Assembly: GCA_020850535.1 (NCBI GenBank) | Contig: JADZEM010000113.1 | Location: forward strand, 1-38,211 | Origin: Chloroflexota bacterium | GTDB lineage: Bacteria > Chloroflexota > UBA6077 > JACCZL01 | Length of the DNA stretch: 38,211 nt | Direction of reading: 5' to 3' | Part shown: piece by piece, positions 33,530 through 37,922 of the stretch | Numbering within the stretch: the first letter of the stretch is position 1 | Layout of the letters: each line of letters begins with the position of its first letter | Position numbers and translations under genes: made by a program | The notes under the pieces: model-generated | Database searches by the model: none | Seen by the model: only the letters and a program-made list of their open reading frames with translations | Told to the model about the DNA's origin: nothing

Positions 33530-34663
33530 CTAGACAGCCTCGGGTCTCGCGAGGCGCGGCACCACGAACGCGAACGTGCTGCCCGGGCCGGGCGTGTCCG
33601 CCAGCCAGATCGCGCCGCCCATCAGCTCCAGCGCCTGCCGGCAGAACGCCAGCCCCAACCCCGACCCGACCGGTCGCCGGCCGCCCGGCAGCGCCAACGG
33701 CGTGAACCGCTCGAACAGCTGGGCGCGGTGCTCGGGAGCCACGCCCGGCCCCTCGTCCTGGACCGACACGACGATGCCGTCCTGCCCCGCCGGCGGGGCC
33801 AGGTTGGCTTCGAGGTCGATCTGGACACGGCTGCCGGGCGGCGTGAACTTGACGGCGTTGGTGACGAGATTCAGCAGCACCCGGCCGAGCAGGTCGACAT
33901 CGGCCTGGACGTGTTCGACCGGCTCGCCGACCACTTCGAGGCGCACGTCGCGCTGGACCGCCTGCGCCGCCAGCCGGTCGACGATCTCATCGGCAACGGC
34001 CGCCAGCGAGACCGCCTGCGCGCGCGGTCGCAGCCGCCCCTCGGAGAGGCGATAGGAGTCGAGCAGGTTGGTGGTCAGCTCGATCAGCTCGGCGGCGTTC
34101 CGCTCGGCGATCCCCAGGAAACGGTGCGCATCGCGGGACGGCAGATCCTCAAGGTCCAGGCGGGCCATCTCGACGGCGCTCGACACCGCCGAGATCATGC
34201 CGCGAATGTCGTGGGCCAGCATGCTGACCAGATCCTGCCGATGGCGGTCGGCCGTTTGCAGCTCGGCGTTCGCGGCACGGAGCTGATCCTGCAGGGCCTT
34301 GGTGCGGAGGGCCGCCCGCACCCGTGCGAGCAGCTCCTCGGGCATGACCGGCTTCACGAGGTAGTCAACAGCACCCTCGTCCAGACCATGAATGCGATCC
34401 TGGAGATCGGCGCGCGCACTGAGGAAGATGACGGGCACATCGCGCGTCGGCTCGGCGGCGCGCAGCTCGCGGCAGACGGAGAACCCGTCCAGGTCGGGCA
34501 TCATCACGTCGAGAATGACGAGGTCCGGCGGGTTCGCGATCGCCGCGTCGAGGCCGCGCCGGCTTTCAGTCTGGGTGGTTACCTGATGGCCCTCGCGCTG
34601 CAGGTACTTCGTGACGATCCGGCCGTTCGCAACGTCGTCGTCGATCACGAGTGCACGCGCCAT
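33530..34663 (-). CDS. receiver-histidine kinase hybrid
   Basis: The 377-residue soluble protein has an N-terminal receiver (acidic DDD at 8-10, phosphoacceptor Asp52 in VILDVMMP, Lys104 in VKPV), a short coiled-coil linker (about 115-145), HisKA with His151 in SMLAHDIRGMI, and an ATPase domain with NLVTNAVKF, DEGPGVAP and GSGLGLAF. The usual Pro after the phospho-His helix turn (RTPL) is absent. The ATG at 34663 shares one base with the preceding stop and has GGGAG seven bases upstream. It probably receives phosphate from the upstream membrane kinase and relays it. Confidence 0.92.
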   Translation of the reverse strand: MARALVIDDDVANGRIVTKYLQREGHQVTTQTESRRGLDAAIANPPDLVILDVMMPDLDGFSVCRELRAAEPTRDVPVIFLSARADLQDRIHGLDEGAVDYLVKPVMPEELLARVRAALRTKALQDQLRAANAELQTADRHRQDLVSMLAHDIRGMISAVSSAVEMARLDLEDLPSRDAHRFLGIAERNAAELIELTTNLLDSYRLSEGRLRPRAQAVSLAAVADEIVDRLAAQAVQRDVRLEVVGEPVEHVQADVDLLGRVLLNLVTNAVKFTPPGSRVQIDLEANLAPPAGQDGIVVSVQDEGPGVAPEHRAQLFERFTPLALPGGRRPVGSGLGLAFCRQALELMGGAIWLADTPGPGSTFAFVVPRLARPEAV

Positions 34664-36669
34664 CAATACTCTCCCACGGCCACGTGCGACCGGCGTGGCT
34701 CGGTCACGTGCTCTCTGATGCGAGCAGCAAGGGCTGGCAGCGGCAGCGCGCCAGCCGTCAGCCAGCTGAGCGCCCCGAGGTACAGCCGGTGCTGCTGGCG
34801 CGGCGTCAGCGCGTCTGGCGTCACCACCACCAGCGGGCAGGCGCGGCGTCCCAGGGCGGCCAGCAGCTCCGCCAACAGCTCAGGCAGCCCGGGGCTGTCC
34901 GCGACGAGATCGAGCACGACCGCGCCAACCTGCTCGCCGCGCGCCACCGTCAGGGCCGCCTCGCCCCGCGCAACCTCGTAGGGGGTCAGGCCGCGCGCCT
35001 GGAGCAGCAGCGAAACCTGACGCCGCCAGAGCGGATCCGCGCCGACGACGAGTGCGAGGTCGTCAGCCGGGATGGCGCTCAAACGGTCCGGCAAGAGCCG
35101 CTCGAGCTCCGCGAAGGGCAAGACCGACAGATGCGGCGTCATCAGCACGTTGCCGAAGGCTTGATGCCCGAAGGCCCGATGCCCATCGGCGCTGAACCCG
35201 AAGAGGCCGATGCGAGCGTCCGATGTCGCGTCGGCGCTGGCAGTAGCCTGGAGCAGCCGCCATGCGCCCGCCTGCACGCCGCGGACGTCGGCCAGCACAC
35301 AACGGGGGGCCAGCATGCTCGTACGGTCCCGCATCCAGGCGTCTGGTGTGTGCCGCGCGGCCCGCACGCCCTGGTCAGCCAGCGCCGCCACCAGAGCGTC
35401 GGCCGCCGGATCGTCCGACACCAGCACCACGTGCTGGGAAGCGGCGAGCGGAGCACGGTCGGCTGGGACATCGGCGGCCAGGCGCGGCTGCGCGGGAGCG
35501 AGCGGCAGCGAGACCAGGAATCGCGAGCCGTGGCCGTCGTTGCTCTCGACCCACAGGTGACCGCCCATCAGCTCAACCAGCTGGCGACTGATGGCCAGTC
35601 CGAGTCCGGTGCCGTCGTGCGCTCGCGCCATGCCGCCGTCAACCTGCCGGAACGGCTCGAAGATGCGGGCACGCGCCTCCTCGGGGATGCCGATGCCCGT
35701 GTCCACGACGGCCAGCGTCACCGCGTCCGCCGAGGCCGACGCCTGCAGCTCCACCGAGCCCGTCGGCGTGAACTTCACGGCGTTCCCGACAAGGTTGACC
35801 AGCACCTGCCGCAGCCGTTCCTCGTCGGCCAGGACCGGCGGGAGCGACGGGCTGAGCGACGTCGTCAGCCGCAGCCCGCGGGCGTCCGCGAGCGGCTGGA
35901 GCAGCGCCGCCACTTCCTCGGCCACCGGCCAGGGGTGCACCGGCTCGCAGACCACCTCGACGGCCCCCGCCTCCAGCCGGGCGAAATCGAGCGTGCCGTT
36001 GACGATCTTGAGCAGGCTCCGACCGCCCTCGTAGATCTGCTGGACGTCGGCGCGCTGCTCGTCGTTGAGGTCGCCGTCCAGCTCGTCGAGCAGCAGCCGG
36101 CCGTGCCCGATGATCGCGTTGAGCGGCGTCCGCAGCTCGTGCGACATGGTGGCGAACAACTCGGCGCGCTCGCGGTCCCGCCGCTGCAGCCGACCGTTCA
36201 CCCGGGCCAGGTCCGCCGCGCGCTCGGCGGCCGACTGGCGCGCCTGCGATCCAGAACGTACCAGGATGTCGAGGCTTCGACCGATCCATCGGTCCGTCAG
36301 GGCGATCATCGCGAGGCCAGACAGCGTCAGCAGCAGCAGCAGCAAGGCGAAGGCCGGGCGATCCTCGTCCGGCAGGCTGACAGCCAGCAGCGCGAGGACG
36401 GCCACGACGACCGACACCAGGACGGCGATGCCGGCCTGGACCCGCGCAAGACGGCGGGCAACGTTCGCAGGCCGTTCGAGCGCAACATGCTCGACAGGCC
36501 CCAGCGCAGGACGGCGATTCGCGCCCCAGGCAGGCAATCCGAACGAGAAGGTGACCGGGAGGATGAGTCGCACGCTGCCTCTACCCCTGCGAGACCCGGC
36601 GAGCCGCTCGCGCTCATGCATCAGGATACCAGGGTCTCTCGCACGTTCCAACGATATTGTGTGCCACAC
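34663..36669 (-). CDS. membrane histidine kinase with two degenerate receiver-like domains
   Basis: The protein is 668 residues if the GTG at 36669 is used; ATG 36621 or GTG 36573 are alternatives, since no start has a clear ribosome site and the first 32 residues look unconserved. Two membrane helices (about 78-98 and 106-125) precede a coiled-coil linker, HisKA with His177 in MSHELRTPLNAIIG, and an ATPase domain (NLVGNAVKFT, DTGIGIP, GTGLGLAIS). Then come two receiver-like folds: one from about 413 with Asp-Asp and LADVRG but no lysine, and one from about 538 with VLDL but neither the full acidic pair nor the lysine. The next gene encodes a receiver-kinase, suggesting a relay. Confidence 0.88.
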   Translation of the reverse strand: MWHTISLERARDPGILMHERERLAGSRRGRGSVRLILPVTFSFGLPAWGANRRPALGPVEHVALERPANVARRLARVQAGIAVLVSVVVAVLALLAVSLPDEDRPAFALLLLLLTLSGLAMIALTDRWIGRSLDILVRSGSQARQSAAERAADLARVNGRLQRRDRERAELFATMSHELRTPLNAIIGHGRLLLDELDGDLNDEQRADVQQIYEGGRSLLKIVNGTLDFARLEAGAVEVVCEPVHPWPVAEEVAALLQPLADARGLRLTTSLSPSLPPVLADEERLRQVLVNLVGNAVKFTPTGSVELQASASADAVTLAVVDTGIGIPEEARARIFEPFRQVDGGMARAHDGTGLGLAISRQLVELMGGHLWVESNDGHGSRFLVSLPLAPAQPRLAADVPADRAPLAASQHVVLVSDDPAADALVAALADQGVRAARHTPDAWMRDRTSMLAPRCVLADVRGVQAGAWRLLQATASADATSDARIGLFGFSADGHRAFGHQAFGNVLMTPHLSVLPFAELERLLPDRLSAIPADDLALVVGADPLWRRQVSLLLQARGLTPYEVARGEAALTVARGEQVGAVVLDLVADSPGLPELLAELLAALGRRACPLVVVTPDALTPRQQHRLYLGALSWLTAGALPLPALAARIREHVTEPRRSHVAVGEY

Positions 36670-36823: not shown

Positions 36824-36835
36824 TCACGGCCGTGA
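36824..36835. promoter_or_regulatory. 12-base palindrome upstream of the ParB-ASCH gene
   Basis: TCACGGCCGTGA is a perfect palindrome about 100 bases upstream of the GTG at 36936, in the 266-base divergent region between the kinase and ParB-ASCH genes. It shares half-sites with 15231-15244. A CGACAG/CTGTCG inverted repeat (36776-36796) lies nearby. TAGACT at 36892-36897 may be the ParB-ASCH -10, with no good -35. No canonical parS was seen. Confidence 0.35.
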
Positions 36836-36935
36836 CGATGCTGTGTCGATCTGGTGCGCCCGCCGTAACTTTCCCGCGTCATGGCGGCTGCTAGACTCGG
36901 GCCACCCCTAGCCAGGAGCAGGAGGACCGAGAGAC

Positions 36936-37922
36936 GTGCCGGACCTCGAGCTGAAGCGCATTCAGCCAAACAAACTGAACCCCCGCCTTCGCTTCTCGAA
37001 GAGCGGTCTGGACGATTTGGCCGCCAGCATCAAGCAGTACGGCATCCTCGAACCGATCATCGTGCGACCGGTGAACGGGCACTTCGAGGTGGTCGTTGGC
37101 GAACGACGGTATCGCGCAGCGCAGCAGGCCGGCCTCGACGAGGTGCCGGTCCTCGTTCGGGAGTACTCGGACGACGAAGTCATGGAGATCAACCTCGTCG
37201 AAAACGTGCAGCGCGAGGATCTCTCCGCTGTCGAGAAGGCGAAGCTCTGCCAGGAGCTCCGCGAGCGCTACCCGGGCAAGTACGTCGGGTGGGATGTGAT
37301 CGCCACGCGCATCGGCGTGGAGGTGGACACGGTCCGGGCCTGGGTTCGCACGCTGAACCTGCCGGAAGAGGTCCAGGAGAGGATCGCCCCGCGCGAGCAG
37401 AAGCGGGTGCCGGAAGGCAAGATCGACTACCGGACCGCGCTGGACATCGCCGAGAAGATCAAGGATCCCGAGCGGCAGGTTGAGGTTGCCACGCAGCTGG
37501 CCGAGGAGCGGGTGCCCCGCGAGGTCGCGCGGGAGGTGATCCGCCGGGCGGCCACCGAGACGCCGGTCCCGGTCCCGCAGATCGTGCAGGAGGCGGCGGC
37601 CAAGCCGCGCGCCTCGCTGGCGTTCACCCACCGGCACTACCAGTCGGTGGTGAGCGGCGAAAAGCAGCAGACGACCCGCCGGCGCGTCGATCCGAACATC
37701 GAGGCTGGCAGCATCGTGCGGGCCGACGTCATCCAGTTCGCCGACCTGGAGATCACCGAGGTGATCCGCAAGCGGCTGGGCGAGATGACGGAGGAGGATG
37801 CGCGCCAGGAGGGCGACTACACGCTGGAAGAGTTCCGCGAGCTGTGGCAGCGCAGCTACGGGGCCTGGAACCCCGAGGAGCTGGTGACGATCATCCGGTT
37901 TCAGCTGGCCCGGGTGCTGTAG
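36936..37922 (+). CDS. ParB-like protein fused to a C-terminal ASCH domain
   Basis: The 328-residue protein starts at GTG, with AGGAGG about ten bases upstream. The N-terminal ParB/Spo0J domain has NPRLRF, SIKQYGILEPIIVR, GERRYRAA (55-62) and ENVQREDLS (89-97), which are the CTP-binding boxes. A helix-turn-helix (about 116-140) and helical region follow to about 215. Instead of the ParB dimerisation tail, residues 225-328 resemble an ASCH (PUA-like) domain: LAFTHRHYQSVVSGEKQQTTRR, then a beta-rich core, RLGEMTEEDARQEG, YTLEEFRELW and a final VTIIRFQL strand. ASCH proteins bind or process modified RNA. No parA partner is adjacent. A DNA-binding clamp joined to a nucleic-acid-sensing module is inferred. 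Confidence 0.85.
   Translation: MPDLELKRIQPNKLNPRLRFSKSGLDDLAASIKQYGILEPIIVRPVNGHFEVVVGERRYRAAQQAGLDEVPVLVREYSDDEVMEINLVENVQREDLSAVEKAKLCQELRERYPGKYVGWDVIATRIGVEVDTVRAWVRTLNLPEEVQERIAPREQKRVPEGKIDYRTALDIAEKIKDPERQVEVATQLAEERVPREVAREVIRRAATETPVPVPQIVQEAAAKPRASLAFTHRHYQSVVSGEKQQTTRRRVDPNIEAGSIVRADVIQFADLEITEVIRKRLGEMTEEDARQEGDYTLEEFRELWQRSYGAWNPEELVTIIRFQLARVL

Follow-up and report, generated by a model that had tools for sequence, protein, structure and literature searches.

What does a ParB-type protein do when its C-terminal dimerisation domain has been exchanged for an ASCH domain and no ParA is found on its contig? The question is raised by a gene close to the end of contig JADZEM010000113.1 of a Chloroflexota bacterium (assembly GCA_020850535.1), of which positions 1 to 38,211 were analysed (38,211 nt, hereafter the window). 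A first-pass annotation had described the product as a ParB-like CTP-switch domain fused to an ASCH domain. The best explanation, to which we assign a probability of roughly 0.45, is an orphan ParB-type protein that acts on DNA in a CTP-gated and site-loading manner and carries an ASCH binding module. The gene is composed as follows.

36936-37922 (+): ParB-HTH-ASCH fusion gene, 328 aa (ORF call, Pfam, seven full-length relatives)
36920-36925 (+): AGGAGG, likely ribosome-binding site, 10 nt before the GTG (read from the sequence)
36945-37211 (+): ParB N-terminal CTPase-fold domain, residues 4-92 (Pfam ParB_N, Noc/ParB fold match, pocket residues kept)
37215-37550 (+): ParB helix-turn-helix DNA-binding region, approximately residues 94-205 (Pfam HTH_ParB 94-193, model helices)
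37551-37613 (+): variable linker, approximately residues 206-226 (14-67% identity between orthologues)
37620-37907 (+): ASCH (PUA-like) domain, residues 229-324, in place of the ParB C-terminal dimerisation domain (Pfam ASCH, YqfB fold match)

The open reading frame starts with GTG and shows a GC3 of 0.89 vs a GC2 of 0.40, which fits a coding frame in a GC-rich genome. Its three Pfam matches all exceed the gathering cut-off, namely ParB_N at residues 4-92 (E=1.9e-30), HTH_ParB at residues 94-193 (E=5e-5, just above the cut-off) and ASCH at residues 229-324 (E=9.2e-10, or 1e-10 with the tail searched alone). NCBIfam supports the ParB assignment and, in the tail, matches its YqfB model with a score under the cut-off. 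The ParB boxes named in the first-pass annotation are indeed present (GERRYRAA at residues 55-62, ENVQREDL at residues 89-96) together with the helix-turn-helix, and the ASCH octapeptide G-x-K-x-x-[ETS]-x-R is represented by G241, K243, T246 and R248.

For structure prediction two separate alignments were used, since a single one mixing ParB and ASCH-only sequences misaligned the tails. The ASCH-only model, built from window residues 218-328 and relatives from archaea and viruses, reaches a pLDDT of 86.7. Its top match in the PDB is YqfB (9kyf, E 3.3e-7, TM 0.74/0.80), followed by ASCH proteins of Lactobacillus, Pyrococcus, Enterococcus and Zymomonas. The tail is thus predicted to fold as ASCH rather than as an ordinary ParB dimerisation domain, and the proposed replacement of the latter holds. 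The full-length model is good at residues 1-140, where it matches Noc and ParB structures, but poor where the ASCH domain begins, which is probably due to an alignment of only three full-length sequences.

A search for the same fusion across Chloroflexota returned seven further full-length proteins in two classes. Within the window's class it occurs in 5 of 29 genomes, the four relatives being 81, 77, 67 and 63% identical to the window protein. Three complete fusions with 48-55% identity were found in Dehalococcoidia (G683, G593, G599), to which a homologue cut by a contig end (L037) had led. The 400-genome sample of the phylum, which had not drawn or reached these three, holds no other fusion at the thresholds used. 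A tree that covered the five window-class fusions sets them and L037 clearly apart, on one branch of length 1.66, from the remaining Chloroflexota ParBs that were compared (support 100/100 from a rough bootstrap). No ParB part was seen in other Chloroflexota ASCH proteins, as judged from the frames that were read, some of them not cleanly recovered. On viral contigs ParB and ASCH relatives were found separately and no fusion was seen.

The open frame is intact in every member. The ratio dN/dS stays below 1 in every pair, with ~0.08-0.26 for the ParB part and 0.14-0.67 for the ASCH part, both rough values as dS is near saturation. Judged by these ratios, purifying selection acts on both parts, more weakly on ASCH, which also evolves faster. 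Chance can be dismissed because full-length homologues exist in both classes and dN is below dS in both parts; a real gene fusion is near certain.

The idea that the fusion is a new type of regulator does not stand, as the ParB-ASCH domain pair has already been reported (PMC12704722, here and below as far as the text of that survey was available). Like the ParB-CTPase-ASCH fusions described there, the window protein combines PF02195 and PF04266 in one chain. That survey covers ParB-CTPase folds joined to ASCH, DUF3850 or DUF488; the N-terminal fold and the PUA-like or DUF488 tail are the same as here, and all but the DUF3850 fusions are orphans without ParA. In contrast, its emphasis for ASCH is on archaea and for DUF3850 on prophages (with parA), whereas the present family is chromosomal in Chloroflexota, keeps the ParB helix-turn-helix and is paired in Dehalococcoidia with a protein, termed X below, which the available text does not mention as a partner.

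Is the fusion nevertheless a divergent ParB of chromosome or plasmid partition? Its best family matches are partition proteins. However, no ParA-family ATPase was matched on any of the five fusion contigs from the window's class (G000:C113, G001:C72, G002:C73 with 575 kb, G008:C81 with 201 kb, G023:C505), in line with the earlier claim of a ParB without ParA; for the three Dehalococcoidia genes only the neighbours were read. ParA matches in the same genomes adjoin other ParBs instead, e.g. on C13 and C1 of the window's genome (G000). Near-canonical parS sites (≤2 mismatches) are likewise present in G000 on C13 and C1 only and not on C113, while parS-like matches with 3 mismatches on C81 and C123 are at control level. 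Hence neither parA beside the fusion nor nearby parS sites, as expected of ParABS, were found in the window's class. Moreover, the fusion shows no ParB C-terminal dimerisation domain, sits on its own branch of the tree and has no match over 80% of its length among 72,556 plasmid records. We consider a role in partition highly improbable.

To evaluate the N-terminal domain, the CTP-pocket residues of Caulobacter ParB (PMC8367383) were mapped onto the eight fusion proteins. The positions of S74, G79, E102, R103, R104, E135, N136 and R139 are identical in 8/8. In Caulobacter ParB, CTP binding or hydrolysis depends on these residues and on R60 (PMC8367383). G008 has His at the R60 position, which the other fusion proteins keep, and also at that of R17. 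At Q58 all eight carry Asn. In the Caulobacter protein R60A leads to weak or no CTP binding and Q58A to a loss of hydrolysis (PMC8367383). Given the Asn at Q58 and the His at R17 in G008, CTP hydrolysis and even the use of CTP may differ in the fusion proteins. According to the available text of PMC12704722, the NTP bound by a ParB-fold protein is not reliably predictable from sequence, and CTP binding has been measured for an archaeal DUF488-HTH ParB-fold protein.

The conserved pocket is consistent with the proposed DNA-sliding clamp, which we infer from these residues. However, the C-terminal dimerisation domain which closes the ring is missing, the tail being ASCH. In terms of a ParB/Noc-type CTPase switch, the ParB_N fold with C and P motifs (apart from the Q58 and R60 positions described above) and HTH_ParB are present while the ring-closing domain is not. 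Noc and KorB, ParB-like CTP switches outside segregation which are among the closest PDB folds, resemble the fusion by a CTP fold with HTH and no ParA, and differ from it in the C-terminal domain. Entrapment of DNA without the usual C-terminal dimer would require either that ASCH dimerises or that the N-terminal gate acts alone.

The ASCH domain was compared with E. coli YqfB, a stand-alone ac4C amidohydrolase and the closest solved ASCH fold. K21, T24, R26 and E74 of YqfB correspond to K243, T246, R248 and E292 of the window protein, which keeps all four, i.e. the complete Lys-Thr-Glu triad and the Arg. Hence an active N4-acylcytidine amidohydrolase like YqfB, attached to a DNA protein that binds CTP, was considered. 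Yet G001 has Arg and G002 Met at the K21 position, and G023 has Leu at that of T24, so that 3/8 fusion proteins lack the catalytic Lys or Thr, and K21A, T24A and R26A each inactivate YqfB (PMC6972931). In addition, all eight proteins have Arg or Lys at the D27 position and Asp at the H70 position. Invariant in the ASCH part are R248, E292 and G241. The analogy to YqfB therefore holds for the fold but not for catalysis: as catalytic residues are lost in three members, hydrolysis of ac4C is unlikely to be the common function, although it stays conceivable for the window protein with its four kept residues, and we regard the tethered enzyme as very unlikely.

For ASCH and EVE domains of other proteins, binding of RNA or modified bases has been predicted or shown, and candidate toxin-antitoxin operons include HTH-ASCH fusions (PMC7641849). 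The ASCH protein of Zymomonas, a monomer, has weak RNase activity on single strands (PMC5615036), and the ASCH domain of TRIP4 appears to add DNA affinity (PMC10076317).

No conserved DNA site for the fusion protein was found; a conserved palindrome upstream of the gene was considered and none is common to the orthologues. The window itself holds a perfect palindrome, TCACGGCCGTGA, at 36824-36835, 112 bp upstream of the gene and without a clear pattern. It is rare, with two copies in the window's genome and one in G001, there on the same contig as the fusion, which could be chance.

The gene neighbourhood gives a divided picture, with no neighbour common to the window-class genomes examined and protein X beside the fusion in 3/3 Dehalococcoidia. 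The window contig continues for 289 bp beyond the gene. On the opposite strand upstream (33530-36669, -) lie a protein with receiver and histidine-kinase parts and a larger histidine kinase, both read from the sequence. In two classes a run of methionine-salvage genes (mtnA, MTAP, SahH, MetK) holds or adjoins the fusion (L031:261-7629, L092:2-9539).

It is possible, if rather unlikely, that the fusion regulates nucleotide metabolism, i.e. that CTP binding and a nucleoside-sensing ASCH domain repress or activate nearby salvage genes. In G001 the fusion is the first gene in a run with APRT, mtnA, MTAP, a PfkB-like kinase, SahH and MetK (most names read from sequence), in G683 the fusion and X lie between mtnA and MTAP, in G002 a cytidylate-kinase-like gene follows ~1.1 kb downstream, and in G008 a PRPP synthetase gene is near. 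However, the neighbours are different in each genome, with none of this kind adjacent in the window, G023, G593 and G599. The pair of fusion and X in G683 (L092) moreover looks like an insertion, with a GC3 of ~0.32 vs ~0.7 in the operon around it.

In all three Dehalococcoidia genomes with a complete fusion (G593, G599, G683), X follows directly downstream in the same direction. This association is new here.

L093:9147-9983, L094:10719-11600 and L092:6668-7441: protein X, downstream of ParB-HTH-ASCH (PADLOC PDC-M19B)

X has a length of ~250 aa and no Pfam match; the two copies tested match PDC-M19B of PADLOC at 3.7e-63 and 2e-66. PDC-M19, a computational candidate defence system, consists of a DUF488 protein (M19A) and X (M19B); PDCs are unvalidated candidates (PMC12988326). 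X is present in 17 of 393 Dehalococcoidia genomes. In the 14 loci without the fusion the gene before it encodes DUF488 in at least eight by Pfam and in three more by sequence motif, and the DUF488 protein before X is matched by PDC-M19A. X is also found on 24 plasmid records, often next to DUF488 or HTH-DUF488 in those that were examined, and on plasmid pBEU9E1 of Saccharolobus shibatae the preceding gene is ParB_N-HTH_ParB-DUF488. As X mostly follows DUF488, and on pBEU9E1 ParB-HTH-DUF488, the ParB-HTH-ASCH protein takes the place of M19A. From this gene order the ASCH and DUF488 tails appear to be interchangeable, while the ParB-HTH part and X recur.

The resemblance to PDC-M19 is incomplete. 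The tail of the fusion is ASCH and not DUF488, the ParB-ASCH proteins do not match the PDC-M19A model, and X is absent from all 29 genomes searched in the window's class. For the fusion itself PADLOC gave no more than a weak match, through the ParB fold, to a methyltransferase model, with marginal matches in two relatives.

Further small proteins were seen around X. One after X is similar in three genomes (L093:9911-10432, L114:2334-2807, L116:2219-2725) and has below cut-off matches, weakly to HEPN (Cthe_2314-like) for the first and weakly to DUF1360 for the second of these. Another, which starts with a CxxC zinc-ribbon-like part and ends with an HTH-like one, lies before DUF488 and X in several Dehalococcoidia genomes (L111:533-916, L112:533-916, L114:495-914, L118:2744-3124); the one copy tested has no PADLOC match.

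The neighbour X, coming from a candidate anti-phage system, suggests a job unrelated to chromosome segregation. The earlier notion of a defence-like protein thereby gains some support from the relatives, but not from the window's class, where X is missing. A role of the fusion in defence is conceivable from these associations, yet we hold it for doubtful. The same applies to a more specific, speculative version, a modular anti-invader system in which a CTP-switched ParB-HTH clamp would load, carry an exchangeable DUF488 or ASCH tail and work with X; here ASCH would read modified bases or RNA, and the window's lineage would represent a one-gene form. Since X is missing from the window's class, the module reading may not apply to the window protein.

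Alternatively, the fusion could be the decaying remnant of a mobile module that has persisted in some lineages after X was lost and has little function. The patchy distribution within its class and the phylum sample, the absence of X and the faster evolution of the ASCH part would fit. Against this, all frames are open, dN/dS is below 1 in each pair (rough, as stated) and three ASCH residues are invariant. Decay is quite unlikely.

We thus return to the orphan CTP-gated DNA protein with an ASCH binding module. Based on the kept pocket residues, the N-terminal domain would bind CTP, and the helix-turn-helix would load the protein at a DNA site, probably not canonical parS. The C-terminal ASCH domain would serve as a binding module for nucleic acid or modified bases and not as a hydrolase. 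The family would be one variant of a mobile gene module that pairs X with a protein of the type ParB-HTH-ASCH, ParB-HTH-DUF488, HTH-DUF488 or DUF488 and in some cases includes a third, HEPN-like gene. In the window's lineage, with X absent, the protein would act on its own; a regulator or surveillance protein bound to DNA and gated by CTP is its most likely role.

The study of CTP switches that take no part in chromosome segregation is young, and few of their functions are known. The present family is chromosomal and conserved, with the ring-closing domain swapped for a nucleic-acid-type module, and relatives have X as a genomic partner in common with the DUF488 proteins of a candidate defence system. 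The role of ParB-fold fusions thereby becomes directly testable with a small set of two or three genes.
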